Translations under genes and position numbers: made by a program | The notes under the pieces: model-generated | The model's input: the letters and a program-made list of their open reading frames with translations, nothing else | The model's database searches: none | What the model was told of the DNA's origin: nothing | Part shown: one piece after another, positions 16,384 through 35,270 of the stretch | Layout of the letters: each line of letters opens with the position of its first letter | Numbering within the stretch: the first letter of the stretch is position 1 | Assembly (NCBI RefSeq): GCF_024213555.1 | Contig: NZ_JANAVO010000007.1 | Coordinates: 124,001-188,000, forward strand | Length of the DNA: 64,000 bases | Direction of reading: 5' to 3' | Source of the DNA: Allokutzneria sp. A3M-2-11 16 | GTDB lineage: Bacteria > Actinomycetota > Actinomycetes > Mycobacteriales > Pseudonocardiaceae

Positions 16384-17055
16384 GCGAAGGGCGTCCTCGG
16401 GCAGGGCCGGGAGGTGGGTGTGGGGGAAGAAGTGGGCTCCGGGGAACTTGCGGGGGGTGCAGGTCCGGGACGTGTAGTGCCGCCACTCGGCCATCACCGG
16501 TTCCGGGGTCATCGGGTCGTCCTCGCCGAACCAGGCTCGGATGTCCAGCGGGAGACGGGCGATCGTCGGCTGGTAGGCGGCGATCAGCCGGAGGTCGCCT
16601 CGGACGATCGGGACGAACAGCTCGCGCATCGGGGAGTTGCGCAACGTCGGCGGGATCGTGCCGTTCGCCGCGAGGGCGTCGAGCAGCTCGTCGTCGGGCA
16701 GCTCCGCCAGGGTGGCCTGGTCGACCGGCGAGAGCAGGTGGGGTGGGCGGGTCGCCGCGACGACGAGGAACTCCGGTGGCGGTTTTCCTTGGGAGACAAG
16801 GGTCAGCGCCAGTTCGTAGGCGATGAGGCCGCCCATGCTGTGGCCGAGGATCGCGTAGCGGGGCGGCGGGTCCAGGGTGGCGAGGTCGGCGGCGACCTGG
16901 TGCACCGTGGGCTGGCGGGGCTCGCGGGTGCGGCGGCCCCGGCCCGCCAGTTCCAGGGGGCGGACGCGGATCTCCGGCGGGAAAGTCCGTTGCCACGCCA
17001 GGAAGGTCCGCGCCGAGCCGCCCGCGTGGGGGACGCAGAACAGGTCGAGGGTCAC
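16366..17055 (-). CDS. type II thioesterase (cluster editing)
   Basis: 229 residues from a GTG start that overlaps the ligase stop by 4 nt (GTGA), so translation is coupled. This alpha/beta hydrolase has the nucleophile Ser73 in GHSMGG, an Asp in WFGEDDPMT and a His in FPGAHFF. Type II thioesterases remove stalled or wrong acyl groups from carrier proteins in NRPS and PKS systems. The gene ends the ten-gene minus-strand operon. The opening LFCVPHAGGSARTF is typical of NRPS-linked members. Confidence 0.93.
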   Translation of the reverse strand: MTLDLFCVPHAGGSARTFLAWQRTFPPEIRVRPLELAGRGRRTREPRQPTVHQVAADLATLDPPPRYAILGHSMGGLIAYELALTLVSQGKPPPEFLVVAATRPPHLLSPVDQATLAELPDDELLDALAANGTIPPTLRNSPMRELFVPIVRGDLRLIAAYQPTIARLPLDIRAWFGEDDPMTPEPVMAEWRHYTSRTCTPRKFPGAHFFPHTHLPALPEDALRSLMTA

Positions 17056-18416
17056 TTGTGGAACTCCCCCGCGGGCAACGGGTGGACGCGGACCACTCCC
17101 GGGCGTTCGCCGCGGGTGAGCAGGGACCGCAGCTGCCGCCGGATGTCGGCCTCGCTCGGGCAGTTCCCGTCGTCGACGTAGACGTCCAGCTCCAGCCGCG
17201 CCGAGTCCGCATCGTCGTCGTCGAGGACCCTGGCCGCCGCGCGCACCACGTGCGGCAGGGACTCGGCGGCCCGGCGGACCGCCGCCATCGACACCTTCTC
17301 CCCCTGCACCACGGTGAAATCCGTTGAGCGGCCACGGATCACGAGGTAGCCGTCGGGGTCGACGAAGCCGATGTCGCCGGTGGCGACCAGGCCCGGCTCG
17401 ATGAGCTGGCCGCGCTTGGACGGGGCCGGTTCGCCGACCCGCTCGCGGTACACGGTGTCCGAGCGCACCAGCAGCTCGTTGTCGCGCACGGTGACCTCGA
17501 CACCGTCCAGCGGCAGCCCCACGGAGCCGTGCCGGTGCGGCGGTTCGAGGTGCGCGGCCAGGGTGGACACTCGCGGACCGGCCTCGGTGAGGCCGTAGGT
17601 CAGGTACACGCCGAGGTCCGGGTTGAGCTTGAGCAGCCGGGCGACGTGGTCGGCGTCCAGGGCCTGGCCGCCCACCGTCAGGGAACGCAGCGGGGACGGC
17701 AGCTCCTCACCGGCGGTGACCAGGGACTTCGCCAGGATCGGGGTCAGCGAGGAGACCGTCACCCGCCGGCTCCGCACGGTGGACAGGTAGTTGGCGGTGG
17801 AGAACGGCGGTCCCGCGAGGACCAGGCTGGAGCCCGCGACCAGGCTGCCGAGGACCTGGGCGACCAGGGCGAAGGAGTAGTAGGCGGGCAGGCTGACCAG
17901 CACGGTGTCCGAGGCGTTCTGGCCGATCGAGGCGATGTGGCGGCGGGCGTTGCGCAGCAGCGCGTCCATGCCGTGCAGGCAGCCGGTCGCCAGGCCCGAG
18001 GTGCCCGAGCTCATCAGGATCACGTTGCCGGGACCGTGTGCGGTGTGCGGGCCGGGGAAGATCGCGAGGTCCACGCCGCCGAGCCGCCGCACGTCGGCCT
18101 CGCCGTGGTCGCCGGGCCGGATCGCCGCCCGGACCAGCGCGAAGGCGCCCAGGTGCCGGGCGATCTCGCGGACCCGGGACCGCGGCGTGGACGGCGACAG
18201 CAGGACCGGGGTGTGCCCGGCGAGGTGGACCGCGAAGAACAGGCGCAGCAACCGGGTCCCGTTGGGCAGCGCGATCACCACGACCGAGCCCGGCCGGGCG
18301 GGCAGCGCCGCGAAGTGCGCCACCAGCTCAACGAGCGAGTCCTGACCGCCGTCCGGTCCGGGCTGTGCCTCCTCGACGCCGTCGAGGAACCCGGCGATCT
18401 GGTCGAGGTCGGTCAT
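17052..18416 (-). CDS. AMP-dependent acyl/aminoacyl ligase, atypical
   Basis: 454 residues from the ATG at 18416, whose ATGA overlaps the stop of the upstream gene. It is an ANL-superfamily ligase: a phosphate loop MSSGTSGLATGC (the usual PKG is changed), LPAYYSFALVAQV, the motif TYGLTEAGPR, TGDIGFVDPDGYLVIRGRSTDF and a C-terminal subdomain. The protein ends ...LPAGEFHK, so the catalytic Lys of motif A10 would be the last residue. It is short for the family (usually 500-550). It probably activates a carboxylate for one of the free carrier proteins. Substrate unknown. Confidence 0.85.
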   Translation of the reverse strand: MTDLDQIAGFLDGVEEAQPGPDGGQDSLVELVAHFAALPARPGSVVVIALPNGTRLLRLFFAVHLAGHTPVLLSPSTPRSRVREIARHLGAFALVRAAIRPGDHGEADVRRLGGVDLAIFPGPHTAHGPGNVILMSSGTSGLATGCLHGMDALLRNARRHIASIGQNASDTVLVSLPAYYSFALVAQVLGSLVAGSSLVLAGPPFSTANYLSTVRSRRVTVSSLTPILAKSLVTAGEELPSPLRSLTVGGQALDADHVARLLKLNPDLGVYLTYGLTEAGPRVSTLAAHLEPPHRHGSVGLPLDGVEVTVRDNELLVRSDTVYRERVGEPAPSKRGQLIEPGLVATGDIGFVDPDGYLVIRGRSTDFTVVQGEKVSMAAVRRAAESLPHVVRAAARVLDDDDADSARLELDVYVDDGNCPSEADIRRQLRSLLTRGERPGVVRVHPLPAGEFHK

Positions 18417-18919
18417 CGGTCGGTGCTCCTCGGCGTCGGTGTGGTCCTCCCGCGCACCACGCACTCCGCGCGGTGGCCGCCGTCCTCGGTCAGCTCGTGG
18501 GTGACGACGACGACCTGCTCGACGCACGGCCGCGCGCCGCTGAGCCAGTCGGCGAGCAACGCCTCGATCACCGTGCGGGCGCTCTCCTTCGGCATCGGCA
18601 GCACGGCGGTCGGCCCCTGGAAGCCGAAGACGGAGCAGATCAGGCCGACGGGAGAACCCGGTCCTGCCGCGGCGAAGCGCATCGGTGACACCCGGCCGTT
18701 GGCCGCGCTGTCGGCGATCTGGCGGAGGGTGTCCCGGGTGGCGAACTCGCTGACCGCGATCACGCCGACCCGCGACGGGCTGGTGGTCTCGCAGTCGGCG
18801 AGCGCGGTGTGCACCACGTCGGCGAGCAGCCAGGCGACGGGATCGGCGTACACACCGGGAATCCGGCGCGGCGCCGTGGTGGGGTCGTCGACCTCGGTGG
18901 TGGCCCTGGCCAGGATCAT
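18413..18919 (-). CDS. truncated beta-ketoacyl-synthase-like protein (N-terminal domain only)
   Basis: 168 residues, with ATGA overlaps at both ends. The sequence matches the small ketosynthase-N-like family found with aryl-polyene and chain-length-factor-like proteins: VGVIAVSEFATRDTLRQI, SPMRFAAAGPGSPVGLICSV and FGFQGPTAVLPMP. The position of the catalytic Cys is occupied by a non-Cys stretch, and the C-terminal half of a ketosynthase is absent. It follows a full FabF-like ketosynthase in the operon, so it may serve as a partner subunit, much like a chain-length factor. Confidence 0.72.
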   Translation of the reverse strand: MILARATTEVDDPTTAPRRIPGVYADPVAWLLADVVHTALADCETTSPSRVGVIAVSEFATRDTLRQIADSAANGRVSPMRFAAAGPGSPVGLICSVFGFQGPTAVLPMPKESARTVIEALLADWLSGARPCVEQVVVVTHELTEDGGHRAECVVRGRTTPTPRSTDR

Positions 18920-19989
18920 CGGGCACGCTCCAGGACCAGGCACGTGTTGAAACCGCCGAAGCCCAGCGTCACGCTGATCCCCACCGAACCGGCTACCGGG
19001 AGCACGTCCCCGTGCGGCAGGAGGGGTGGGGTTTGCTTGTGGTGCAAGGAAAGCATCAGGGCGATGGCCTCGATCGCTCCGGTGGCGCCGAGGGTGTGCC
19101 CGAAGGCGGGCTTGGTCGCCGACACCACGGTCCGGTCACCGAAAAGCTTGGTGTAGCAGGCGGTTTCGGTCTCATCGTTGGCCGAGGTCCCGGTGCCGTG
19201 CGCGTTGATCACCGCCACTTCGCCCGCGTCGATCCCGGCCTTGCTCAGCGCCCGCTCGACCGCGAGCACCGCCGCCCCGCCCGAGAGGTCCGGCGCGGTG
19301 GGGCCGGTCGCGTCGTTGGAGGAGCCCCAGCCGCGCAGCTCGCCCCAGATCCGCGCGCCCCTGGCCTCGGCCGCGTCCCGGGTCTCCAGCACCAGGAACC
19401 CTGCTCCCTCACCGAGCACCGTGCCGTCCCGGTCGTCGGCGAACGGCCGGATTCCCGTCGCGGACGCCGTTCCGAGCGCCGCATGACCCAGGTGCTTGGC
19501 CTCGCTCAGCAGGTCGATACCACCGGCGAGACAGCGCCGCGCGGCACCCGAGCTGATCATCGCGGCGGCGACCAGCAGCGCGTCCGAGCCCGACGAGCAC
19601 GCCGTGCTCACCGTGACCGGGCTCTCGCGCACACCGAGCCGGTCGCCGACCGCGCGGGACCAGGCGTGCGGTGACTCGTCGCAACCGTCGTCCAGGTGCG
19701 GGCCGAGACTGCTGCCGAGCACCAGCAGGTCCACGCTCTCCGCGCCACATCCCGCGTCCGCCAAGGCGAGCGAGGCCGTCGACGCGGCCAGTGAGACCTG
19801 CCGTTCGGTCGCGGGGCCACCCGTGCCGGGCAGGGTGGCCGCCCAGCGCGCGCGACCCCTGGTATCCGGGGCCAGCGCGCGGATTCCGCTGTCCCCGTTC
19901 ACCAGGCGCCGCCACACCCCGTCGATGTCATCGCCGAGCGCGGTGGTCCACCCCATGCCCGTCACGCAGGCGGCCCGGTCGGTGTCCAT
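18916..19989 (-). CDS. FabF-like beta-ketoacyl synthase (stand-alone)
   Basis: 357 residues from the ATG at 19989, which overlaps the upstream stop as TGATG; an in-frame ATG at 20007 is an alternative. The thiolase-fold condensing enzyme has catalytic Cys131 in VSTACSSGSDALL, the first His in NAHGTGTSANDE and the Lys/His pair in KPAFGHTLGATGA. All catalytic residues are present, so it should condense carrier-bound acyl units. It is somewhat short for the family (about 410). It probably works with the truncated ketosynthase-like protein just downstream and with a free carrier protein. Confidence 0.92.
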   Translation of the reverse strand: MDTDRAACVTGMGWTTALGDDIDGVWRRLVNGDSGIRALAPDTRGRARWAATLPGTGGPATERQVSLAASTASLALADAGCGAESVDLLVLGSSLGPHLDDGCDESPHAWSRAVGDRLGVRESPVTVSTACSSGSDALLVAAAMISSGAARRCLAGGIDLLSEAKHLGHAALGTASATGIRPFADDRDGTVLGEGAGFLVLETRDAAEARGARIWGELRGWGSSNDATGPTAPDLSGGAAVLAVERALSKAGIDAGEVAVINAHGTGTSANDETETACYTKLFGDRTVVSATKPAFGHTLGATGAIEAIALMLSLHHKQTPPLLPHGDVLPVAGSVGISVTLGFGGFNTCLVLERAR

Positions 19990-20843
19990 CAGTGCCGCAC
20001 CGGACATCGCGGCTCGCCAGTACCGCCGGTGCCGTCTGAGCCGTCCGCGCCCTCGTGGCGGGTGCCCAGCGTCCAGTAGGTCTCCTCGGCCGCCCGCCAC
20101 AGCTCGGGGAACAGCGTGAAGTTGGCCCGCGCCTCCATTGTGGACAGTGAACGGCCGCCGAGGCTCTGCGGCAGCTCGCCCCGGCCCTCCTCGTGGCGCA
20201 GCCCCGGTTGGCCGCCGAGCTGCGACCACACCATGATCAGGTGGCTCTGCTTCCACTCCAGCACGTTGCTGTCGAAGCGCAGCAACGACTCCCGCAGCAG
20301 CGCCAGCGCCTGGATGCCGCCCTTGTCGTCCACGCCGGTCTCGTCGTTCTGCGCCGCGATCAGCTCGGGCAGGGTGAGCCCCGCCCTGGTGACCGCGTCC
20401 TCGAAGCTCTTCCACACCGGCCGGGCGACGCGGCGCAGGTTGCGGTAGCCCGGCGAGTCCAGGCCGGTGGCGTTCTCCGGCAGGGCGTTGCGCATCATCA
20501 GCAGGCTGTGCTGCGGCAGGTTGGCGCCCAGCAGCCGCACCGACTGGACGGTGATCTCGCTGAGCCCGATCACCCGGCCCAGCAGCCGTTGCGCCTGCTG
20601 CAGGCGGTCGGCGTCCATGTGCTCGACCACCCGGCGCAGCTCGAAGTGCACCTGCGCCCACGCGTACTCGCTGATCAGGTGGGTGACCTGGAAGAAGTGC
20701 AGGTCGGGGTGGCCGGTCTCGGACTCCGGCAGCAGCGCGCCGAGCGCGTCGGTGAGGCGCAGGACGGACTCGTAGTTGCTGCCCCGGTCGTACTCGTAGG
20801 CCAGCGAGGAGTTGGTCTCCCGCGGGTTCAGGGTTCGCTTCAC
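19989..20843 (-). CDS. tryptophan 2,3-dioxygenase-superfamily heme enzyme (MarE-like)
   Basis: 284 residues, GTG start directly abutting the methyltransferase stop. It shows the TDO plan: HPDLHFFQVTHLISEYAW matches the family's first helix with the active-site His (His55 here); QSVRLLGANLP and LDSPGYRNLRR follow; LEWKQSHLIMVWSQLGGQPG carries the likely heme-ligand His201. The usual TDO C-terminal GTGGSSG loop is changed (QPGLRHEEGRG). In this superfamily MarE makes 3-substituted 2-oxindoles from beta-methyltryptophan, while others hydroxylate tyrosine. Next to a beta-methyl-amino-acid cassette, an oxindole-forming role is the best guess. Confidence 0.82.
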   Translation of the reverse strand: MKRTLNPRETNSSLAYEYDRGSNYESVLRLTDALGALLPESETGHPDLHFFQVTHLISEYAWAQVHFELRRVVEHMDADRLQQAQRLLGRVIGLSEITVQSVRLLGANLPQHSLLMMRNALPENATGLDSPGYRNLRRVARPVWKSFEDAVTRAGLTLPELIAAQNDETGVDDKGGIQALALLRESLLRFDSNVLEWKQSHLIMVWSQLGGQPGLRHEEGRGELPQSLGGRSLSTMEARANFTLFPELWRAAEETYWTLGTRHEGADGSDGTGGTGEPRCPVRH

Positions 20844-25163: not shown

Positions 25164-26042
25164 TTGAGACATGCCATTTTGGGGGCCGGTGGAGTCGGCC
25201 TCGCGGTCGGCGCCGCGCTGGCGGAGCACGGCCACGAGGTCGTGCTGGTGCTGCGCGAGCCCGCGCGGGCCGACCATCCGGGCTCCATCACAGTCCACAG
25301 TGGACTCCACGGCGCGCTTGAGCTGCCGGTGTCCACGGCGTCGCCGCTGCGCGAGGACGTCGACGTGCTGTGGGTGACGGTGAAGGCACCCGCACTGGAA
25401 TCCGCGCTGGGCAACGTGATTCCCGATGTGTCGGTGGGCTCGGTGGTCTCCCTGCTCAACGGGTTGGACCACCTGTCTCCGTTGCGCGGCCGGTTCGGTG
25501 ACCGGGTGGTCGCCGGTTCGATCCGTATCGAGGCCGAACGCACCGCCCCCGGTTCGGTGACGTGGCACGCGATGAGCGCCGCGGTGGAGCTCGCCGGGGA
25601 CGATGACGCGCGGCTCGTGCCGGTGATCGAGGCACTGCGCGGCACGCGGATCGACTGCGTCGTCGGTACCGACCCGCTGAACGTGTTGTGGCGCAAGCTC
25701 GCCATGCTGCTGCCGCTCGCGCTGGCGACCACCGCGGCGGACGGTCCGCTCGGCGTGGTGCGCCGCACACCGGCGGTGCGCGAGCTGATGTGTTCCGCCG
25801 CCCACGAACTGTGCGCAGTCGCTGCGACACAAGCGGTTTCGCTCTCCGCTGAGGAGAACATCCGCACCCTGGAGGGACTTCCCGGCAGGACCGACACGTC
25901 GCTGCACCGCGACGTGGTCGCCGGAGCCCAGCAGACGGAGCTGGCCGCGCTCACCGATCCGGTGCTGCGCCTGGCCACCGCGCACGGGGTGCCCACACCG
26001 TCGATCACCACCCTCGTCAAGCAGATCCGGAGGCAACGATGA
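25164..26042 (+). CDS. ketopantoate reductase (ApbA/PanE)-like NADP-dependent reductase
   Basis: 292 residues from TTG 25164, chosen because GAGGA lies 8 nt upstream and the Rossmann GAGGVG sits right after (LRHAILGAGGVGLAVG). Other ApbA features are VTVKAPALESAL, VSLLNGLDH and a C-terminal helical domain. The conserved Lys-containing loop is NVLWRKLAMLLPLAL. In clusters such enzymes reduce 2-keto or 3-keto acids bound to carriers or free. It heads the plus-strand operon and overlaps the ACP gene by ATGA. Its substrate is not evident. Confidence 0.85.
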   Translation: MRHAILGAGGVGLAVGAALAEHGHEVVLVLREPARADHPGSITVHSGLHGALELPVSTASPLREDVDVLWVTVKAPALESALGNVIPDVSVGSVVSLLNGLDHLSPLRGRFGDRVVAGSIRIEAERTAPGSVTWHAMSAAVELAGDDDARLVPVIEALRGTRIDCVVGTDPLNVLWRKLAMLLPLALATTAADGPLGVVRRTPAVRELMCSAAHELCAVAATQAVSLSAEENIRTLEGLPGRTDTSLHRDVVAGAQQTELAALTDPVLRLATAHGVPTPSITTLVKQIRRQR

Positions 26043-26311
26043 CCGTCAGTTCCGCGCGATGCCTGGAAGACCAGCTGCGGGAGATCCTCGTCCACGACCT
26101 CTACCTGGAGGTGCCCGCCGAGGAGATCGGCGAGGACGACGGGCTGCAGGACGTGCTCGGCCTGGACTCGCTGGGCTTCGTGGAGCTGCGCGCCCAGTGC
26201 GAGCAGCGGTTCCGGGTCACCATCGACGACACCCTGTTCTCCCCCAAGCACTTCCGGTCCGTGCGGACGGTCGCCGACCTGGTCCGCTCGCTGGGCGGAC
26301 AGCCCAGTTGA
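26039..26311 (+). CDS. stand-alone acyl carrier protein
   Basis: 90 residues. The ATG overlaps the upstream stop (ATGA) and the stop overlaps the NRPS TTG start (TTGA). The carrier domain has the phosphopantetheine Ser in VLGLDSLGFVELR, an ACP-type DSL motif instead of the NRPS GGHS. It probably carries a ketide or carboxylate starter, perhaps loaded by the AMP ligase and elongated by one of the free ketosynthases. The position just ahead of the NRPS condensation domain suggests it donates its acyl group to that domain. Confidence 0.93.
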   Translation: MTVSSARCLEDQLREILVHDLYLEVPAEEIGEDDGLQDVLGLDSLGFVELRAQCEQRFRVTIDDTLFSPKHFRSVRTVADLVRSLGGQPS

Positions 26312-29300
26312 GCACTCTGCCGAGGGTGCCCGCCACACCGGCCCAGCTGGAGGTGTGGCTCGCGGGCCAGCGTGAACCGGAGTCCGGGCGCTACAACATC
26401 AACGTCGATCTGGAGTTCACCCCGGGCGTCGACGTGCCCGCGCTGCGGGCGGCGCTGCGGGACGTGCTCGCGGCGCATCCCGCGCTGCGCAGCCGATTCG
26501 ACACCGACAACGGTGGGCTGACCCGCGTGGTCGAACCCGCCCCTCCGGTGGCGTTCGTCGAGCACCGCGAGCCCGGCCCCTTTGACCGCGCCCAGGCGCT
26601 GCGATGGGCGGCTGTCTCCGGCAAAGCGGTGTTCGACCTGGCCGTCGCGCCGCTGCTGCGCGCCGCGCTGCTGGTCAAGGACGACGGCGCGCTGTTCTCG
26701 GTCACGATGCACCACATCATCTCCGATGGCTGGTCCACCAACGTCTTCACGCAGGACCTGATCACTGCCTACCGCGCGCGGACCCGTGGGGAAACCGGGC
26801 TGTCCGTGCGGTCTTCGGCCGAGGAGCCCGAGTTCTACCCGGAGCTGGCCGAGGCCGCCGAGCAGCACTGGTCCACGGTGCTGCGCGACGCCCCCGCTCC
26901 GCTGGCCCCGCTGCACGACCTCGTCGCCGAGGACGGTCTGCCCGGACCGTCGGCAGATGTCGAGCTGGCTCTGCCCGCCGGGGTCATGGCGGACGTGCAG
27001 GCGTTGGCGCAGAAGGTGCGTGGCTCGTCGTCGGTCGTGCTGCTGGGCGCGTGGTCGGTGCTGCTGCACGCGTGGAGCGGCCGGTCGGACGGCACGTTCG
27101 GCATGGTCTTCTCCGGGCGCGAATACGGCGCGGAGGACGAGATCGACCTGCGCAGCCGGGTGCTGCCGATGCGCGACCGGCTCGACGCCGACCGGTCGTT
27201 CCAGGACGTGCTCGCCGGTCTCCGCGACCAGCTGCTCGACGCGTTGGAGCACTCGTCGGTGCCCGCCCAGCTGCTGCAACAGATCCGTCGGGAAAGCACC
27301 GAGCGCACGGTGTTCATGTACACCCCGGCCTACGAAGGCGAATGGCGGGTCGGGGACACCACGGTCCGGCGCTTCGACCACCCCGACGACACCACGAAGT
27401 ACGAGTTCTCGATCAACGCGATCGAAGGCGCGGAGGGCATCCGGCTGTGCCTCTACTACGACTCGTCGCGCTACCGGGAAGCAACCGCGCGGCTGTTCGT
27501 CGAACAGCTCCGGGAACTGATCACGTCGGCCGTCGCCGAGCCACATCGCTCGTGCGGTGACCTGCTTTCGGTGTGCGACACCGGCCTCGCCCAGCTCCAG
27601 TCGCACGGAGCGCCCGTCGCACCGACCGCCGACCTGGTGCCCGACCTCGTGCTGCGGCACGCCGCCGAGCGGCCGGACTCCATCGCGGTCCGGCACGGCG
27701 AGCACGTGCTCACCTACCGGGAGCTGGTCGAGCAGGCGAGCGCGGTCGCGAACTGGTTGCGGGACAACGGAACTCGCCCTGGCGAGACCGTCGCACTGCT
27801 GTTGCCACCCGGCGCCGACACGCCCGTCTTCTGGCTCGGCTGCGTGCTGGCGGGCGCGGCGTACCTGCCGTTGGACCCCGCCTACCCGCAGGCCCAGCTC
27901 CAGCTGATCGTGGACGACGCCCGTCCGCCGGTGCTGGTCGTCGACCCCGGCTGCGAGGTCGACGTCAAGCAGCCGCAAGGCATCGTGGTGACGGTCACCG
28001 ACCTGTACGCGCAGGCTCCCGCCGGGCCCGCCCCGGTGGTCGAGCGCGACGGGGGCTCCACCTTCTGTGTGCTCTACACGTCGGGAACCACGGGGCGCCC
28101 CAAGGGAGTCGTGCTGCCGCACCGGGGAATGGCCCGGCTCATGGAGCGGCCGGACTTCATCCCGCTCGACCCCTCCGACGTGATCGCGCAGCTGTGCCCG
28201 CTGAACTTCGACGGGGCGACCTACGAGATCTGGGGCGCCCTCGCCCACGGCGCGGAGTTGGTCGTGCTGGACAAGCACCTGGTGCTCAGCCCCCGCGAGA
28301 TGCGGACCGTGGTGCGGGAACGCGGCATCACCACGCTGCTGGTGACGACGCCGCTGCTGAACCGGATCATCGAGGACGCGCCGGACCTGTTGCAGTCGCT
28401 GCGGCGGGTGTACTTCGGCGGCGAGATCATCTCGGTAGCGCACATGCGCCGGGCGCTGCGCTGGTGCGGGCCGAACGTGCTGCTGCACAGCTACGGTCCG
28501 ACCGAGAACTCCTTCACCTCCACGTGGTTCGCCATCAACGAGGTCGACCCGAACGCGCGCACGCTGCCGATGGGCAGGCCGGTTCCGGGTACCGAGGCGC
28601 GCGTGGTCCTGGAGGGCACCACCACCCCGGTTCCACGCGGTGTCGCCGGTGAGCTGCTGCTCGGGGGCGTGGGGCTGGCGGACGGCTACCTCAACGACCC
28701 GGAGCTGACCGCCTCCCGGTTCGTCACCGCCGACGCGCGGCTGTACCGGACCGGCGACCGGGTGCGGTGGAACGCCGACGGGCTGCTGGAGTTCATCGGT
28801 CGCAACGACAACCAGGTGAAGATCCGCAGTCAGCGGGTCGAGCTGGGCGAGGTGGAGGCCGTCCTCGACGGGCACTCCGCGGTCACGTCGGTCTTCGTCA
28901 CCGTGCACCGGAACCCGCGCGAGGAGAAGGAGATCGTCGCCTACGTGGTGGCGACGCGCGCGGTCGACCCGGCGGAGCTGCGGCAGTACGCGCAGACCCG
29001 GCTCCCGGGTTTCGCGGTCCCCCGGCACATCGTGGTCGTCGACGCGCTGCCGCTGACCCCGACCGGGAAGATCGACCGCCGCCGGTTGCCCGTCCCGGAC
29101 CTCGGCGCGGCCCCGGTCGTGCGCACCACGGGCGTGCTGGACCAGGTGCGGTCGGCGTGGAAACGCGTGCTGGACCACGACATCACCGATCTCGACCTGA
29201 ACTTCTTCGACGCGGGCGGCCACTCGCTGCTCCTGGTCAGGCTCCAGGACGAGCTGCGCGCGGCGACCGGAACCGAACCGTCCATCATGGACCTGATGCG

Positions 29301-30249
29301 GCACGTGACCGTGCGTGCGCAGGCGAATCTCCTTGGTGGAGAAGCACAATCGGCTACCGTCTACGCGGAGGCCCCGCAGCAGCGAACGGTCAAGGTGTCA
29401 GCGGCCGTTGCGGCACCGCAGGATGAGCGTCGCCACCACGTGCTCGCGCTCTCCGCACGCAGCACAGATGCGCTCTCTGTGGCCCGTGAGCAGCTCGCCG
29501 CCACTCGCGGGGTGCGGCTGGAGGACGTGGCCAGGACGCTCGACGGCCGCGAGCGCTTCGAACACCGGTTCGCCGTGGTGACCGACGACCTCGCGTCAGC
29601 GGCTCTCACCGTCGGCGAGGGAACCGTCACGCGCTCCGAGTCGGTTGTCTTCGCGTTCGGTGATTGTGTTGCGCCGCTTGGTGATTCCTACCGGTTGTTC
29701 CCGAAGATCCGTGAGCTTGCCGAGGGAAGGACCGGGGCCGAGCTGGCCTACGCTCTCCAGGTCGGCATCGCCGAGCAGTTCATCGAGTGGGGCGTCTCCC
29801 CCGCCGCGGTGTGCGGCACCGGCTCGGGCAGGCTGGCCGCGGCGACCGTCAGCGGCGCACTGTCCTTTTCGGACGGTCTGCGCGGAGCGACTGCCCTCGG
29901 CGTCCCGAAGCTGCGCTGGATCACCACCGAGCAGGACGGCCTCTCCGACACGGCCGGGCTCGCCGACCTGGCGAAGGTCGCTTGCCACGAGTTGGGGCCC
30001 ACCGTCCTGCTCGACATCGGAACGGCTCCATCGCCGGAGATCACCGTCGCCGACGCCGTGGTCGTGCCCACCCTCACGCCTGGCGTTGCCGACGACCGCG
30101 CGCTGATGACCGCTGTCGCCGCCCTGTGGTGCCGGGGCGTCGACGTGGCGCTGTCCACCGGAGGACGACGCGTGCACCTCCCGGGACATCCCCTGTCCTG
30201 GGCCACTACCAAGAGCACGGAGGCTCAGCATGCCCGCACTACGCGGTGA
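26308..30249 (+). CDS. NRPS C-A-PCP with C-terminal degenerate acyltransferase
   Basis: 1313 residues from TTG 26308 (or GTG 26326). Condensation domain about 10-420, active-site HHIISDG near 135. Adenylation about 440-930 with YTSGTTGRPKG, FDGATYEIWG, YGPTEN, YRTGDR and LTPTGKIDR. Read by eye its code is near D-G-Y-L-Y-G-S-F-T-K, no assignment. PCP about 943-1010 with AGGHSLLL. From about 1040 it continues as a PKS-style KS-AT linker (VLALSARSTDALS, FEHRFAVVT) and an acyltransferase-like region. There GHSxG has become CGTGSGRL: catalytic Ser to Gly, His to Thr. No thioesterase. Overlaps the dehydrogenase gene by 20 nt. Confidence 0.93.
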   Translation: MSTLPRVPATPAQLEVWLAGQREPESGRYNINVDLEFTPGVDVPALRAALRDVLAAHPALRSRFDTDNGGLTRVVEPAPPVAFVEHREPGPFDRAQALRWAAVSGKAVFDLAVAPLLRAALLVKDDGALFSVTMHHIISDGWSTNVFTQDLITAYRARTRGETGLSVRSSAEEPEFYPELAEAAEQHWSTVLRDAPAPLAPLHDLVAEDGLPGPSADVELALPAGVMADVQALAQKVRGSSSVVLLGAWSVLLHAWSGRSDGTFGMVFSGREYGAEDEIDLRSRVLPMRDRLDADRSFQDVLAGLRDQLLDALEHSSVPAQLLQQIRRESTERTVFMYTPAYEGEWRVGDTTVRRFDHPDDTTKYEFSINAIEGAEGIRLCLYYDSSRYREATARLFVEQLRELITSAVAEPHRSCGDLLSVCDTGLAQLQSHGAPVAPTADLVPDLVLRHAAERPDSIAVRHGEHVLTYRELVEQASAVANWLRDNGTRPGETVALLLPPGADTPVFWLGCVLAGAAYLPLDPAYPQAQLQLIVDDARPPVLVVDPGCEVDVKQPQGIVVTVTDLYAQAPAGPAPVVERDGGSTFCVLYTSGTTGRPKGVVLPHRGMARLMERPDFIPLDPSDVIAQLCPLNFDGATYEIWGALAHGAELVVLDKHLVLSPREMRTVVRERGITTLLVTTPLLNRIIEDAPDLLQSLRRVYFGGEIISVAHMRRALRWCGPNVLLHSYGPTENSFTSTWFAINEVDPNARTLPMGRPVPGTEARVVLEGTTTPVPRGVAGELLLGGVGLADGYLNDPELTASRFVTADARLYRTGDRVRWNADGLLEFIGRNDNQVKIRSQRVELGEVEAVLDGHSAVTSVFVTVHRNPREEKEIVAYVVATRAVDPAELRQYAQTRLPGFAVPRHIVVVDALPLTPTGKIDRRRLPVPDLGAAPVVRTTGVLDQVRSAWKRVLDHDITDLDLNFFDAGGHSLLLVRLQDELRAATGTEPSIMDLMRHVTVRAQANLLGGEAQSATVYAEAPQQRTVKVSAAVAAPQDERRHHVLALSARSTDALSVAREQLAATRGVRLEDVARTLDGRERFEHRFAVVTDDLASAALTVGEGTVTRSESVVFAFGDCVAPLGDSYRLFPKIRELAEGRTGAELAYALQVGIAEQFIEWGVSPAAVCGTGSGRLAAATVSGALSFSDGLRGATALGVPKLRWITTEQDGLSDTAGLADLAKVACHELGPTVLLDIGTAPSPEITVADAVVVPTLTPGVADDRALMTAVAALWCRGVDVALSTGGRRVHLPGHPLSWATTKSTEAQHARTTR

Positions 30250-31237
30250 GGCCGCCATCCTCGTCGAGCCCGGACGGGTGGAGGTGGAGGAGGTCGCGTT
30301 CCGCGACATCACCGAGGGCGAGGTGCTCGTCCGCAACGCGGTCGGCGCCATCTGCGGCAGCGACGTGCACCGGGTGCGCGCCGAGTCCCCGTTCTTCCGG
30401 GACATGCGCGACCACGAGTACCCGTGCCCGCCCGGCTACCCTGGCCACGAGGGGCTCGGCGAGGTCGTGGAGAGCCGGTCGCCGTTGTTCTCCCCCGGCG
30501 ACCGGGTGCTGACCGTGCCGAACCACGCCTACATGGCCTCGTTCGCGCGCTACCAGACGATCTCCGACAAGTTCCTCCTGCACGTGCCGGTCAACGGCAC
30601 GGCGATGCACTACCTGATGGCGCAGCAGCTCGGCACGGTCATCTACGCGCTGAAGCAGTTCTGGCCGCGTCCGGTCACCGGTGGGACGGCCGCGGTGGTC
30701 GGCACCGGGTCGGCGGGCATCCTGTTCGTGCAGATGCTCAAGCACCTCGGCTTCGACCGCGTGATCGCCGTGGACCTGGAGCCGGGCCGCTTGGAGCTGG
30801 CCAAGACCCTCGGCGCCGACGACGCGGTCCTGGCGCCGGGCCAGGACGTCGGCGAGGCCACCAAGGAGCTCACCGGCGGGCTCGGGGCGGACCTGGTGAT
30901 CGAGGCCGCCGGGACCGACTCCGCGCGCGAGCACGCCATGGCGATGGTCGGCATGCGCGGGCGGCTGGGCTTCTTCGGGATGCCGGAGGACTACACGCTC
31001 TCGGTGCCCTACGCCGCGCTGTTCGGCAGGCAGGTCGCGCTGACCACCGCGGTCGGCGCGCAGATGGAGCCGGACCTCGCCTCCTTCCGCCAAGCGCTCC
31101 AGCTGGTGGTCGAGGACCGGATCGCGGTCAAGGACCACATCACGCACACCTTCGACATCAAGGACATCGCCACCGCGCTCGACCTCGCGCACGACCGGCT
31201 CGACGGTGTCGTCAAGGTCGGACTCACCTTCGACTAG
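30230..31237 (+). CDS. zinc-dependent medium-chain alcohol dehydrogenase
   Basis: 335 residues from ATG 30230 with GGAGG 6 nt upstream, starting inside the NRPS gene. MDR superfamily: the catalytic zinc Cys is in AICGSDVHRV, followed by the His/Glu of PGHEGLGEV. The NAD(P) Rossmann motif is AAVVGTGSAGILFVQ with VDLEPGRLELAKTLGADD. The usual structural-zinc Cys cluster is reduced, as in sugar- and secondary-metabolite dehydrogenases. It should oxidise or reduce a hydroxyl/keto group on the product or on a carrier-bound intermediate. Confidence 0.9.
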   Translation: MPALRGEAAILVEPGRVEVEEVAFRDITEGEVLVRNAVGAICGSDVHRVRAESPFFRDMRDHEYPCPPGYPGHEGLGEVVESRSPLFSPGDRVLTVPNHAYMASFARYQTISDKFLLHVPVNGTAMHYLMAQQLGTVIYALKQFWPRPVTGGTAAVVGTGSAGILFVQMLKHLGFDRVIAVDLEPGRLELAKTLGADDAVLAPGQDVGEATKELTGGLGADLVIEAAGTDSAREHAMAMVGMRGRLGFFGMPEDYTLSVPYAALFGRQVALTTAVGAQMEPDLASFRQALQLVVEDRIAVKDHITHTFDIKDIATALDLAHDRLDGVVKVGLTFD

Positions 31238-31247
31238 GGGATCCACT

Positions 31248-32486
31248 GTGGACACTGACGTGCCAGGCGAGGCCGTCGCCATCATCGGGATGGGCGGCCG
31301 GTTCGCCAAGTCGCCCGACATCCCGGCCCTCTGGGCCAACCTGCGCTCCGGGCGGGACTGCTTCACCAGGGCCGAGGACCCCGTCGTCGAGGACGTCGGC
31401 GACGACACCCTGCGGGTGCACTCCTACGGGCTGATGCCGCACCGCGACCGGTACGACACCGGCCTGGTCGGCGCCGCCGAACTGGACCCGCAGCACGGCA
31501 TCCTCTACGAGTCGCTGTGGCAGGCCGTCGAGGACGCCGGGCTGAAGTTCGGCGAGATCAACGAGCGGACCGCGGTCTACGCGGGCTGCGCGCGGACCAA
31601 GCACGTGCCGCGCGCGGCCTTCGACGAGGTCATGAACATCGACCCGACCTTCGCCGGACCGCACTTCTCCTACCTGCGGAACCTGCTCGGCGAGAGCGTC
31701 ATGATCGACTCGGCGTGCGCCACGTCGGCGGTCGCGGTGCACCTGGCCTGCCAGAGCCTGCGGCTGCACGCCTGCGACTACGCCCTCGCCGGGGCCGTCG
31801 CGGTCCAGGAGGACGTCCAGGGTTGGTACCTGCGCCCGCCGCGCAGCATCCACGCCACCGACGGGATCAGCAGACCGTTCGACCCGCGCACCACCGGCGT
31901 GATCCCCGGCGACGGCTCGGGCGCGGTGCTGTTGCGCAGGCTGGCCGACGCGCTCCGCGACGGTGACCCGATCCACGCGGTGATCCGCGGCAGCGCCGTG
32001 GGCAACGACGGCGGCAACAAGCCCGGCTTCGTCATCCCCGGCGTGGACGGCAAGGTCAGCGTGGTGCGTAAGGCATTGGCCGTCGCCGGACTGTCCGGTG
32101 TGGACGTCGGCTACGTCGAGGCGCACGGCGTCGGCATCCCGCTCAACGACCAGATCGAGGCGACCGCGCTCACCGAGGCGCTCGGCGCGGAAGGGCCTCC
32201 GGTGGCCGTCGGCTCCGTCAAGGCGTCGGTCGGCCACTGCGACACCGCGGCCGGGATGGCCGCGCTCATCAAGACCTCCCTCGCCGTGCGCGAGGGTTTC
32301 CTGCCGGCGACACCGAACACCCGCGACCCGATCCCGGAGCTCACCAGGCACGGCGACCGTTTCGGCATCCTGCCGGAGGGTCGGCCGTGGGACTCCGCGG
32401 GCCGGTCGCGCGTCGCGGGTCTGATGTCGGCGGGAGTCGGGGGCACCAACGCGTTCCTGATCGTCGAGGAACCACCCGGCGTCTAG
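31248..32486 (+). CDS. stand-alone PKS-type ketosynthase
   Basis: 412 residues from GTG 31248, 10 nt after the dehydrogenase stop. Modular-PKS-like condensing enzyme: AVAIIGMGGRFAKSPDI opening, Cys near 157 in DSACATSAVAVHLAC, first His in VEAHGVGIPLNDQIEA, Lys/His in GSVKASVGHCDTAAGMAAL. The whole triad is kept. It ends FLIVEEPPGV, exactly where a modular PKS continues into the KS-AT linker. That missing linker and an acyltransferase remnant are found at the C-terminus of the NRPS two genes upstream. It therefore looks like one half of a split PKS module. Confidence 0.92.
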   Translation: MDTDVPGEAVAIIGMGGRFAKSPDIPALWANLRSGRDCFTRAEDPVVEDVGDDTLRVHSYGLMPHRDRYDTGLVGAAELDPQHGILYESLWQAVEDAGLKFGEINERTAVYAGCARTKHVPRAAFDEVMNIDPTFAGPHFSYLRNLLGESVMIDSACATSAVAVHLACQSLRLHACDYALAGAVAVQEDVQGWYLRPPRSIHATDGISRPFDPRTTGVIPGDGSGAVLLRRLADALRDGDPIHAVIRGSAVGNDGGNKPGFVIPGVDGKVSVVRKALAVAGLSGVDVGYVEAHGVGIPLNDQIEATALTEALGAEGPPVAVGSVKASVGHCDTAAGMAALIKTSLAVREGFLPATPNTRDPIPELTRHGDRFGILPEGRPWDSAGRSRVAGLMSAGVGGTNAFLIVEEPPGV

Positions 32487-32516: not shown

Positions 32517-32951
32517 GTGTCACAGGCAACCCAGGTGTCCGGTCACGTCAGCGCCGACCTCTACGTGGAGGTGAAGAACTTCTACGCCAGGCAGATGCGC
32601 ATCCTCGACGAGCTCGACGTGGACCGCTTCACCGAGACCTTCACCGAGGACGGCTCGGTCGAGCACCCGCACCGCACCGAGAAGGTCTCCGGCCGCACCG
32701 CCATGCGCGCCAAGATGCACAGCATGCTGCCGCAGTACCAGGGCCTGGTCACCCGGCACTGGTTCGACCACTTCCTGATCGAGGACGCGGGTGAGGGCGT
32801 CCTGCGCGTCACCTACTACTCGCTGGTGACCCAGACCAACACCCAGGACGAGGTGAAGTTCTTCTCCTCCTCCAGCGTCGAGGACCTGCTGGTGCGCGAG
32901 AACGGCGAGCTCAAGATCCGCGCCCGCGTCATCCTGCGCGACAAGCCCTGA
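32517..32951 (+). CDS. SnoaL/NTF2-like protein
   Basis: 144 residues from GTG 32517. A single cone-shaped alpha+beta domain of the SnoaL/ring-hydroxylase-beta type: VKNFYARQMRILDELDVDRF, FTEDGSVEHPHRTEK, TRHWFDHFLIED and a C-terminal LKIRARVILRD. Members act as cyclases, isomerases or small hydroxylases in natural-product pathways, and many are without known function. It lies between the ketosynthase and the interrupted A domain in the plus operon and is followed by a strong hairpin. A role in ring closure is a guess. Confidence 0.82.
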   Translation: MSQATQVSGHVSADLYVEVKNFYARQMRILDELDVDRFTETFTEDGSVEHPHRTEKVSGRTAMRAKMHSMLPQYQGLVTRHWFDHFLIEDAGEGVLRVTYYSLVTQTNTQDEVKFFSSSSVEDLLVRENGELKIRARVILRDKP

Positions 32952-33014: not shown

Positions 33015-35270
33015 ATGGATCGACTGCCCCCGGCCTCCTGGAACGACACCGCGCGCGCCTTCGACGACGACCTGTCCATGGTGGACCTCGTCGAACGCCA
33101 GGTGCACAAGGCCCCCGACGCCCCGGCGGTCCGGCTCGGCGGCGACGCCACCAGGTCCTACGCCGAGCTGTGGGCGGACTCCGGCGCACTGGCGAAGTTC
33201 CTCCAGGACAACGAGGTCGGGCGCGGTGACTTCGTCGGCATCCTGGTGGAGAACTCCTACACCTCCGTCGTGGCGGTGCTCGGCGTCCTCCGCTCCGGCG
33301 CCGCGTACGTGCCGCTCGACACGCGCTGGCCCGCTTCCCGTGTGGCACAACCACTCCAGCAACTCAGTGTCAAGTGGACGGTCACCTCACGGTCCTGGTT
33401 GCGGCGCGCGGAGGAGGCGGCGGACCTCGCCGGGACTGCGACCCGGTTCGTGTGCACGTCCTTCGAACCAGCACCGGAACCTGACCTGACCGACGAGATC
33501 CAGAGCATGCTCTGGGACGAACTAGCGAACGAACCCGAGCTGGCCCGCGCCTCCGGCTTCACCGACGAGTTCTCCCCGGCGCAGATCCAGACCTACGTCG
33601 AGCACGTCCGCGACCTTGTCGGCCCCGCCTCGCGCGTGGTGGAGGTCGGTTGCGGCGCGGGCCTGATCGCCAAAGCGCTGAAAACCAAGTCCTACAAGGG
33701 AATCGACATCTCCCCGGCCACCGTCGAGCGTGCCGCCCGTGAGGTTCCCTCCGGCGAGTTCCACCACGGCACCGCGCTCGACCTGCCTCGGCTCGTCTCG
33801 CCGGGCGGCGCGGATGTCGTGCTGCTGGCCAGTGTCACCCAGTTCTTCCCCGACTTCGAGTACCTGCGTGCCGTGCTGCGCGACGCGCTCGCCACCGTCG
33901 CCCCGGGTGGCGCCGTGGTGCTCGCGGATGTCGTCGACCCCGCTACCGGCGGGACCCTATTCGGCGTGTCACCGCAGTGGTTCTCCCGGCTCGGCACGGC
34001 TCTGGGTGTTGCCGTCTCGGTCGAGGTGCGCAGGCGGTCCGGCCCAGAATGGCACCCGCTCATCAAGGACCGCTACGACGTAGTTCTCCGGCGTGGCACG
34101 GAGTCTGTCGCGGCGGAGCCGGTCGTGACGCACTGGGCGTCGCTGTCCGGCTCCGTCCCCGCCGAGGGCCCGGGGCCGACCGACACCGCGTACGTGATCT
34201 TCACCTCCGGCTCCACCGGAGTGCCCAAGGGCGTCTCGGTCCGCCACCGCAGCGCGGTGAACCTGATCCAGTGGGTCAACGAGCGCTACGACATCGGCCC
34301 GGACGACACCCTGCTGTGGGTGACGGCGCTGACCTTCGACCTGTCCGTCTACGACCTCCTCGGCACCCTGGCCGCGGGCGCGGCGATCCGCGTCGCGCCA
34401 CCGGCCGAGCTGGGCGACCCCGTGCTGCTGGCGGAGGTCCTGACGCGGGAGCCGATCACCTTCTGGGACTCCGCCCCGGCCGCGCTGAGCCTCGTGATGT
34501 CCATTGTGGACGAACTGCCGCCCTCGTCGATCCCCGCGCTGCGCCTGGTCTTCCTCAGCGGCGACTGGGTTCCGCTCACCCTGCCCGACCGCGTCCGGAC
34601 GCACTTCCCGGAGGCCCACGTGGTGGCGCTCGGCGGGGCGACGGAGGCCACGATCTGGTCCAACTACTTCGACGTCGCCGAGATCGACCCGGGCTGGGCG
34701 AGCATCCCCTACGGCAAGCCGATCCACAACGCCCGCTACTACGTGCTCGACGACGAGCGCCGCGTCTGCCCGATCGGCGAGGAGGGCGACCTCTACATCG
34801 CGGGTACGGCCCTCGCTGACGGCTATGTCGGCGACGGCGACCTCAACGCCCGCAAGTTCCTCCCGGACACCGTGCTCGGCGTCCCCGGCGAGCGCATGTA
34901 CCTCACCGGGGACCGGGCGCGCTGGAAACCCGACGGCAACATGGAGTTCCTCGGCCGCCGCGACGACCAGGTCAAGATCCGCGGCTACCGCGTCGAGCTC
35001 GGCGACGTCATGGCGGCGCTGCGCCAGCTCCCCGGGGCGGTGGACTGCGCGGTGGTGACCACGCCGGGCGACGACGGCCCGGAGCTGCTCGGGGCGGTGG
35101 CCTCGGCCGCGCTCACCCCGCGCGAGGTCCGCGCCCACCTGGCGGAACACCTGCCCAGCTACATGGTCCCCGACCACGTCCTCGTCCTGCCGACGCTGCC
35201 GGTGGGACCGACCGGCAAGGTCGACCGCAACGCCCTGTCCCAGGCGCTGACGCACTCCCGCAGGCGCTGA
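33015..35270 (+). CDS. interrupted adenylation domain (A-methyltransferase-A), predicted cysteine activation and S-methylation
   Basis: 751 residues. The adenylation domain starts normally (A2 GAAYVPLD near 96), is broken by a complete SAM methyltransferase (about 165-355; VVEVGCGAGLIAKAL, GIDISPATVERAA), then resumes with A3 IFTSGSTGVPKG near 395 and runs to A10 GPTGKVDRN. Pocket residues by eye are D(235) L Y D(278) F S L I W K, close to the known cysteine code DLYNLSLIWK. FLSGDWVPL is typical of Cys domains. TioN, with its methyltransferase between A2 and A3, adenylates and S-methylates cysteine. No PCP is attached and no MbtH-like gene was seen. Confidence 0.93.
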   Translation: MDRLPPASWNDTARAFDDDLSMVDLVERQVHKAPDAPAVRLGGDATRSYAELWADSGALAKFLQDNEVGRGDFVGILVENSYTSVVAVLGVLRSGAAYVPLDTRWPASRVAQPLQQLSVKWTVTSRSWLRRAEEAADLAGTATRFVCTSFEPAPEPDLTDEIQSMLWDELANEPELARASGFTDEFSPAQIQTYVEHVRDLVGPASRVVEVGCGAGLIAKALKTKSYKGIDISPATVERAAREVPSGEFHHGTALDLPRLVSPGGADVVLLASVTQFFPDFEYLRAVLRDALATVAPGGAVVLADVVDPATGGTLFGVSPQWFSRLGTALGVAVSVEVRRRSGPEWHPLIKDRYDVVLRRGTESVAAEPVVTHWASLSGSVPAEGPGPTDTAYVIFTSGSTGVPKGVSVRHRSAVNLIQWVNERYDIGPDDTLLWVTALTFDLSVYDLLGTLAAGAAIRVAPPAELGDPVLLAEVLTREPITFWDSAPAALSLVMSIVDELPPSSIPALRLVFLSGDWVPLTLPDRVRTHFPEAHVVALGGATEATIWSNYFDVAEIDPGWASIPYGKPIHNARYYVLDDERRVCPIGEEGDLYIAGTALADGYVGDGDLNARKFLPDTVLGVPGERMYLTGDRARWKPDGNMEFLGRRDDQVKIRGYRVELGDVMAALRQLPGAVDCAVVTTPGDDGPELLGAVASAALTPREVRAHLAEHLPSYMVPDHVLVLPTLPVGPTGKVDRNALSQALTHSRRR

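Follow-up and report, generated by a model that had tools for sequence, protein, structure and literature searches.

In a 64,000-nucleotide stretch of the genome of Allokutzneria sp. A3M-2-11 16 (contig NZ_JANAVO010000007.1, positions 124,001 to 188,000; hereafter the window), the parts of one polyketide synthase (PKS) module lie on two polypeptides. The ketosynthase (KS) is a free protein, and its linker to the acyltransferase (AT), a dead AT and the post-AT linker form the C-terminal tail of a nonribosomal peptide synthetase (NRPS), behind the peptidyl carrier protein (PCP) domain. We hypothesize that this tail acts in trans as a docking cap for the free KS, a reading that we hold with a probability of roughly 60%, the docking itself being predicted from sequence. 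The features concerned are the following.

26308..30249, plus strand: MarM-like NRPS with Pfam domains C (~26326-27591), A (~27655-29070) and PCP (~29140-29334), followed by the tail of linker, dead AT and post-AT linker
29434..29616, plus strand: KS-AT linker domain (LD, of the flanking-subdomain type) on the NRPS; CurL-like_PKS_C and RhiE-like_linker above the Pfam cut-off
29617..30090, plus strand: shortened, catalytically dead AT remnant on the NRPS; GTGSG at 29815-29829 replaces GHSxG, and the segment with the AT histidine is absent
30091..30201, plus strand: post-AT linker on the NRPS (LWCRGVDV...GRRVHLPGHPLSW), counterpart of the LPTY(A/P)FQ segment described as KS-binding in PMC10423236
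31206..32486, plus strand: free type I KS with no linker in cis, assigned by Pfam, NCBIfam, trees and motifs; the start is possibly GTG 31248 or 31260

The NRPS was read from the TTG codon at 26308, which gives a protein of 1313 amino acids whose start overlaps the stop of a gene for a free acyl carrier protein (ACP). A start at 26059 was discarded, as it would run the NRPS into the ACP gene (26039-26311) in a frame that looks like shadow sequence; numbered from 26059, the PP-binding domain occupies residues 1028-1092. The original prediction, made from the letters alone, had recognized behind the PCP a KS-AT linker and an AT-like region in which GHSxG had become GTGSG, and both elements were recovered. 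Scored alone, the tail exceeded the Pfam cut-offs for CurL-like_PKS_C (31.9 bits, cut-off 27) and for the RhiE-like KS-MAT linker (29.7 bits, cut-off 27). The match to Acyl_transf_1 stayed below threshold (17.3 bits versus a cut-off of 32.7) which, with GTGSG and the missing His motif, sets the tail apart from a functional cis AT domain (PF00698). A profile built from eight tails (A1) matched KS-AT didomains in the PDB, with the best E of 1.4e-20 for DEBS 8ee0, residues 478-681. An AlphaFold2 model of the window tail (mean pLDDT 66, pTM 0.72) aligned with DEBS KS3-AT3 from the linker through the post-AT linker (Z 18.7, 236 residues, rmsd 3.0; VIA-align restricted to chains ranked by Foldseek), so that by family cut-off and fold match the tail has the fold of a KS-AT linker with its post-AT linker, at low model confidence in the latter part. 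The comparison with AT folds proposed along with the original prediction thus gave the expected match, with the Ser and His motifs absent.

The free KS, 408-426 amino acids long depending on the choice of start, has complete Cys and both His motifs (DSACATS, EAHGVGI, GHCDTAAG). It terminates 10 residues past GGTNA, the KS boundary and the site where a linker would start. With the gene order NRPS, zinc alcohol dehydrogenase, KS, it is the second gene past the NRPS, and the earlier description of a complete KS two genes on, ending at the linker start, proved accurate. (LD, PAL and HGTGT serve here as conventional labels.) The best NCBIfam match of the protein is a type I PKS (277 bits). Its identification as the KS of the Amc machinery was rejected, since it scores only 103 bits with AmcF (cut-off 325) and AmcF rows stand apart from the free KS in the tree. 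Nor is it a trans-AT PKS module with a flanking subdomain in cis with the KS: the protein stops at the KS end, and the linker is on the NRPS.

Relatives were collected in several ways. A KS pattern scan of one genome per species (84,980 species; close relatives only) gave nine loci. For the window's family, 390 genomes were searched and 7 gave a KS match at E 1e-95 or better; the figures were 3 of 394 for a sample of its class and 11 of 392 for a sample of Streptomyces (the genus of G705, judged by its match with L033), with partial overlap among the three sets. A genus-level search had only 3 genomes and led nowhere. KS matches shorter than 300 amino acids, duplicates and repeats were removed, leaving 23 loci of the KS family, 14 with a free KS and nine with a KS fused behind C-A-PCP (handles beginning with L, G and C denote loci, genomes and contigs). 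L039 and L040, two of the pattern-scan loci, have KS and linker in cis and served as outside rows.

KS and linker were found on separate polypeptides in all 23 family loci, the KS protein ending 9-24 residues past GGTNA and the linker lying on another protein of the same cluster. Among the other type I KSs, 16 of 17 have the linker in cis within ~40 residues (L066 weakly, E 0.01). At every one of the 14 free-KS loci the linker piece sits behind the NRPS PCP, which rules out the split as an artefact of one assembly; because the arrangement is found again in related clusters, it is not a matter of chance. Homologous fusions of an NRPS with a pseudo-AT, for which the original prediction had proposed a search, thus exist in the window and its relatives, the AT being wholly gone in L041 and L042. 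GHSxG together with the AT histidine motif was found in none of the 13 other free-KS loci, as predicted for an inactivated AT.

What was kept and what was lost in the tails is uneven. GHSxG and SHAFHS occur together at two of the 23 loci (L096, L097), and the AT is entirely gone at four, which belong to two separate clades (L041/L042 and L082/L083). The linker is nevertheless retained in 23/23 loci and the post-AT motif in 22/23. From the linker start to the post-AT motif we counted 427-429 amino acids in L096/L097, 254 in the window, and 122 and 121 in the two AT-less pairs, compared to 368-433 in four in-cis comparators (a fifth escaped the pattern). The L041 tail aligns end to end with the C-terminal region of the KS chains 4wky (446-578, E 1.3e-12) and 4ope (448-571), both of which we take to be trans-AT KSs; the L082 tail matches 4wky 448-578 and GfsA 9jj9 469-592 along its length, more weakly than the L041 tail. 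Among 16 tails with an AT remnant (L035, L041, L042, L082, L083, L096 and L097 were left out of this count), the linker averages a pairwise identity of 0.58 and the post-AT linker 0.56, compared with 0.39 in the AT remnant, and none of 10000 column shuffles, which treat columns as independent, was as extreme. Between L032 and the window, identity is 69% in the linker, 46% in the AT remnant, 66% in the post-AT linker, 26% in the spacer and 76% in the KS. In canonical modules, the post-AT linker is described as wrapping the KS-AT linker, with its LPTY(A/P)FQ segment binding the KS surface (PMC10423236, PMC11907408), so that the parts kept here are those that touch the KS.

This pattern bears on a simpler explanation, in which the tail is a fossil, a linker and AT remnant left on the NRPS after excision of the KS and decaying without a role. 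The AT part is indeed shortened to differing degrees and less conserved than the two linkers, and in L035, on a 10 kb draft contig, a frameshift after the AT remnant, perhaps a draft error, cuts off the post-AT linker. The ratio dN/dS is below 1 in every computable part and pair (one was not computable; L035 was left out, and C values were not used, as the Streptomyces C rows held upstream shadow sequence). For the linker and post-AT linker it ranges from 0.14 to 0.82 by pair, mostly above the values of the A domain or the KS; with some pairs also high in dS, the ratio is at best a weak indication of constraint. Against a fossil stand the near-universal retention of linker and post-AT motif, the two separate complete AT losses that kept both linkers at near-equal length, and their conservation above both the AT part and the spacer preceding them. 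We consider the fossil quite unlikely.

The order of events was reconstructed from a KS tree with 40 rows, four AmcF rows having been dropped, in which the 17 KSs from outside the family served as root. The KS family and the free-KS clade (14 rows) each form a clade at 100/100, and an earlier tree with the AmcF rows agrees. The intact-AT members L096 and L097 branch first. They are Streptomyces clusters with a TDO homologue, in which the module is split exactly between KS and linker: a C-A-PCP-KS protein stands beside a separate linker-AT-ACP-C-PCP-reductase protein, whose AT scores 177.5 and 180.2 bits and carries GHSVG and SHAFHS. L082/L083 branch next (node 97/91), with a partner protein that joins the linker to the post-AT linker without an intervening AT and continues into a sub-threshold half condensation domain. 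L037, L081 and L093-L095, with a dead AT, follow (the node uniting them with the free KSs has 92/86), and the free-KS clade, with the linker piece behind the NRPS PCP, is the last to branch. Within that clade, the window and eight Streptomyces-type loci retain an AT remnant, L043-L045 retain one plus an additional C-terminal stretch, and L041/L042 have only linker and post-AT linker.

On this branching order, the split between KS and linker predates the death of the AT; the freeing of the KS, along with the move of the linker piece to the NRPS, came last. The original prediction of one ancestral KS-AT module with an inactivated AT therefore stands as regards common ancestry (the KS trees, the linker in cis in nearly all other KSs and the dead AT support it) and has to be revised as regards history, the split being older than the AT's death. 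The distant relatives L096 and L097 depart from the prediction in having an intact AT, but they encode it on a different protein from the KS. In loci where a half condensation domain follows the post-AT linker, it scores below the Pfam cut-off of 30.6, as in L037 (25.2), L081 (19.6) and L082 (26.3); the start of a condensation domain on the linker protein was also seen by eye in L083 and L093-L095. It is perhaps the remnant of an ancestral C domain. Visual inspection had suggested an ACP remnant following the post-AT linker in L043-L045 and L082/L083; this was dropped, as Pfam reported none in the scanned stretches of L043, L045 and L082.

The surroundings of the split module hold the following genes.

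26039..26311, plus strand: free ACP of the AmcB type (NF058660, 112.2 bits, cut-off 80); its stop overlaps the NRPS start
17052..18416, minus strand: AmcH-type 2-oxoglutaryl-ACP ligase (NF058661, 575.4 bits, cut-off 370)
18413..18919, minus strand: AmcG-type cyclization factor (NF058659, 150.7 bits, cut-off 80)
18916..20007, minus strand: AmcF-type ketosynthase (NF058662, 438.9 bits, cut-off 325)
30230..31237, plus strand: zinc alcohol dehydrogenase family protein between NRPS and KS (Pfam)
32517..32951, plus strand: SnoaL-like protein (Pfam SnoaL_4)
33015..35270, plus strand: MarQ-like interrupted A-methyltransferase-A protein (Pfam; tblastn)

AmcB, AmcF, AmcG and AmcH, which together make up the minimal Amc set, all exceed the NCBIfam equivalog cut-offs in the window. 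The Amc machinery is reported to make the five-membered ring of cispentacin, and Streptomyces sp. B9173, an FR900452 producer, is listed as having the minimal set ('minimal type') in the same paper (PMC10698177). Homologues of MarM, MarQ, MarE and the beta-methyltryptophan genes occur together in the window (tblastn against L036, which covers part of a cluster, and others), a window gene matching the tryptophan-dioxygenase family at 39.1 bits, below the cut-off of 390.7. Because its closest clusters are the Streptomyces mar clusters, including that of the FR-900452 producer TP-A0890 = NBRC 110468 (L036; producer from PMC4611700), the window cluster is assigned by sequence to the maremycin/FR900452 type. 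The window NRPS is 55% (C), 75% (A) and 60% (PCP) identical to that of L036, NRPS domain identities to relatives having been taken from tblastn. The MarQ-like protein, MarQ being described as an A-MT-A protein (PMC11355689), is 60-64% identical to five Streptomyces-type loci, and in L036 it falls into two pieces (60 and 71%). The zinc alcohol dehydrogenase shows 69-75% identity in those related clusters where tblastn recovered it and was not found by tblastn in L043-L045.

Amc genes accompany the free KS beyond the window. AmcG and AmcH are present in all ten free-KS genomes searched, and at 10 of 11 free-KS loci both lie on the KS contig within 20 kb, AmcG being 1.2-19.9 kb away. Seven of eight fused-KS genomes have no match to AmcG or AmcH, and G898 has both on another contig. 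The free KSs further share a change next to the catalytic His: HGVGI replaces HGTGT, and NDQIE the GDxxE that follows it, in 14/14 free KSs, 0/9 fused KSs and 0/17 others. Motif change and Amc company fit a KS that would use an unusual extender from an Amc-loaded ACP.

In L058-L060 the free KS is encoded beside AmcF, some 1.2 kb ahead of AmcG, and the NRPS gene is ~10 kb away on the opposite strand. This placement speaks for a reading in which the free KS does not act on the NRPS-bound peptide and serves another step, for instance with AmcF and AmcG, its shared ancestry with the tail being historical only. AmcF and AmcG homologues, however, exist separately, and the same KS family is joined directly behind the PCP of a related C-A-PCP protein in the nine fused loci, which argues for transfer from PCP to KS. 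We regard another step for this KS as very unlikely.

A further alternative is a role of the tail in recruiting a carrier protein or discrete AT (e.g. the AmcB-type ACP or a housekeeping malonyl transferase), or in grouping assembly lines, instead of in docking the KS. The gene for the AmcB-type ACP lies immediately ahead of the NRPS gene and overlaps it, KS-AT linkers are reported to contact the ACP in elongation (PMC10423236), and one AT query run by tblastn against the window returned no intact AT (nothing below E 0.06). For grouping speaks the report that the flanking subdomain groups trans-AT assembly lines laterally (PMC11260071, PMC11907408). Against this, the post-AT linker, which is known to contact the KS surface, is retained too, and the linker already stood on a separate protein while an intact AT still followed it in cis (L096/L097). 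Recruitment or grouping in place of KS docking seems unlikely to us, though such roles and docking are not exclusive and can coexist.

For the docking cap, we envisage the following course. The KS-AT linker domain of a typical module, like its post-AT linker, folds back on the KS; here both ride on the NRPS beside the carrier domain. The linker pieces on the NRPS would bind the separate KS protein, and the cap would place the peptidyl-S-PCP next to the active-site Cys of the KS, which would then couple the peptide acyl group with an extender carried by the free ACP of the AmcB type. That extender would most likely be a five-membered ring made from 2-oxoglutarate and malonyl via AmcH, AmcF and AmcG, and the coupling product would be the peptide-cyclopentenone skeleton of FR900452-type compounds. 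Because the extender would arrive on its own ACP, the AT would be dispensable and could decay while the KS-contacting parts stayed. FR900452 itself presumably carries its cyclopentenone on the former tryptophan carbonyl, the bond that such a KS would make. We infer the physical docking, the order of the substrates and the role of the cyclopentane unit as nucleophile from the arrangement and company of these genes. More tentatively, and as a possibility that we rate below even odds, linker and post-AT linker may together form an autonomous trans adaptor that survives AT loss and presents an NRPS peptidyl carrier to a free KS using a ready-made cyclic beta-ketoacyl-ACP, not malonyl. For the docking view speaks the coevolution of KS and flanking subdomain that is reported in trans-AT PKSs (PMC11260071). 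Known classes of docking domain, which are short terminal elements, include the four-helix bundle, the DHD and the beta-hairpin (PMC9113145).

Besides the L035 frameshift, the dN/dS values of the linkers and the reported lateral grouping, several points weigh against a docking cap. Residues 248-253 and 257-277 of the tail model, much of the post-AT linker, have pLDDT below 50. The tree program warned of long branches, above all L063. KSs at KS/DH split junctions of trans-AT PKSs are described as lacking a flanking subdomain (PMC9113145), so a KS need not have one. In G1101, which holds L035, AmcG and AmcH are on another contig of a fragmented assembly. Seven fused-KS loci with a dead or missing AT have no Amc genes near (L081-L083, L093-L095 and L037, the last judged from an 18 kb stretch), and AT loss therefore does not depend on Amc. 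Finally, free KS, Amc genes and motif change all fall on one clade and therefore represent few independent events.

Some further loci deserve mention in their own right. L069 (minus strand, G001:C1:2454742-2455995), the exception among the 17 comparison KSs, encodes a type I KS outside the family clade whose protein stops 9 residues past the matched KS region and has no in-cis linker; the split may have arisen there a second time. At L072:15315-18281 (G145:C1 ~9.08 Mb), an NRPS-PKS hybrid has KS, linker and a degenerate AT (GVGDG) in cis and by its sequence appears to be another AT loss, outside the split family. The window's genome contains a second mar-like cluster, L041 (G000:C40:47000-66999), whose NRPS tail is only linker and post-AT linker and which has no MarQ-like interrupted A domain within the stretch covered. 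The AmcG matches in G114, G145 and G150 contain one or two internal TGA codons, either through alignment past the gene end or through a real interruption.

Searches of an open-access library, together with the papers cited here, brought up no account of a KS separated from its linker in which the latter is carried by an NRPS and, among papers on pseudo-AT, ClbK, MarM and mar clusters, nothing on the NRPS tail. A 2024 study calls the function of the flanking subdomain behind trans-AT KSs unclear (PMC11260071). With KS and subdomain separated by nature and the AT removed in stages, the KS's need for the subdomain could be tested by mixing. The biosynthetic pathway of FR900452 is called unknown in PMC10698177, and the split module would be a candidate for the step that joins the cyclopentane unit to the peptide. 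It also offers a natural NRPS-to-free-KS junction of possible engineering use.

Compared with known systems, the window cluster is closest to the maremycin/FR900452 (mar) clusters known from the Streptomyces strains B9173 and TP-A0890, with which it shares the NRPS, KS, MarQ-like, SnoaL-like, alcohol dehydrogenase and beta-methyltryptophan genes (L036; KS 76%, A 75%); those clusters have Streptomyces hosts, whereas the window's genome belongs to another GTDB family and holds a second cluster with an even shorter tail. With the Amc/Cfa type II PKS-like cyclopentane machinery of cispentacin and coronafacic acid it shares AmcB, AmcF, AmcG and AmcH, but the KS of that machinery is AmcF, while the free KS of the window is of type I. 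The flanking subdomain of trans-AT KSs resembles the L041 tail in the absence of an AT and the retention of the linker and an LP.YPF-type segment (4wky, 4ope); it lies in cis behind its KS, whereas in the window's family KS and subdomain are separate proteins and, in the window, the subdomain is on the NRPS. The cis-AT KS-AT didomain of DEBS has the same fold and order of linker, AT and post-AT linker, compared to which the window tail has no KS, its AT is shortened and without catalytic residues, and all of it stands behind a PCP. The system is thus a variant of PKS/NRPS hybrids and not a new kind.

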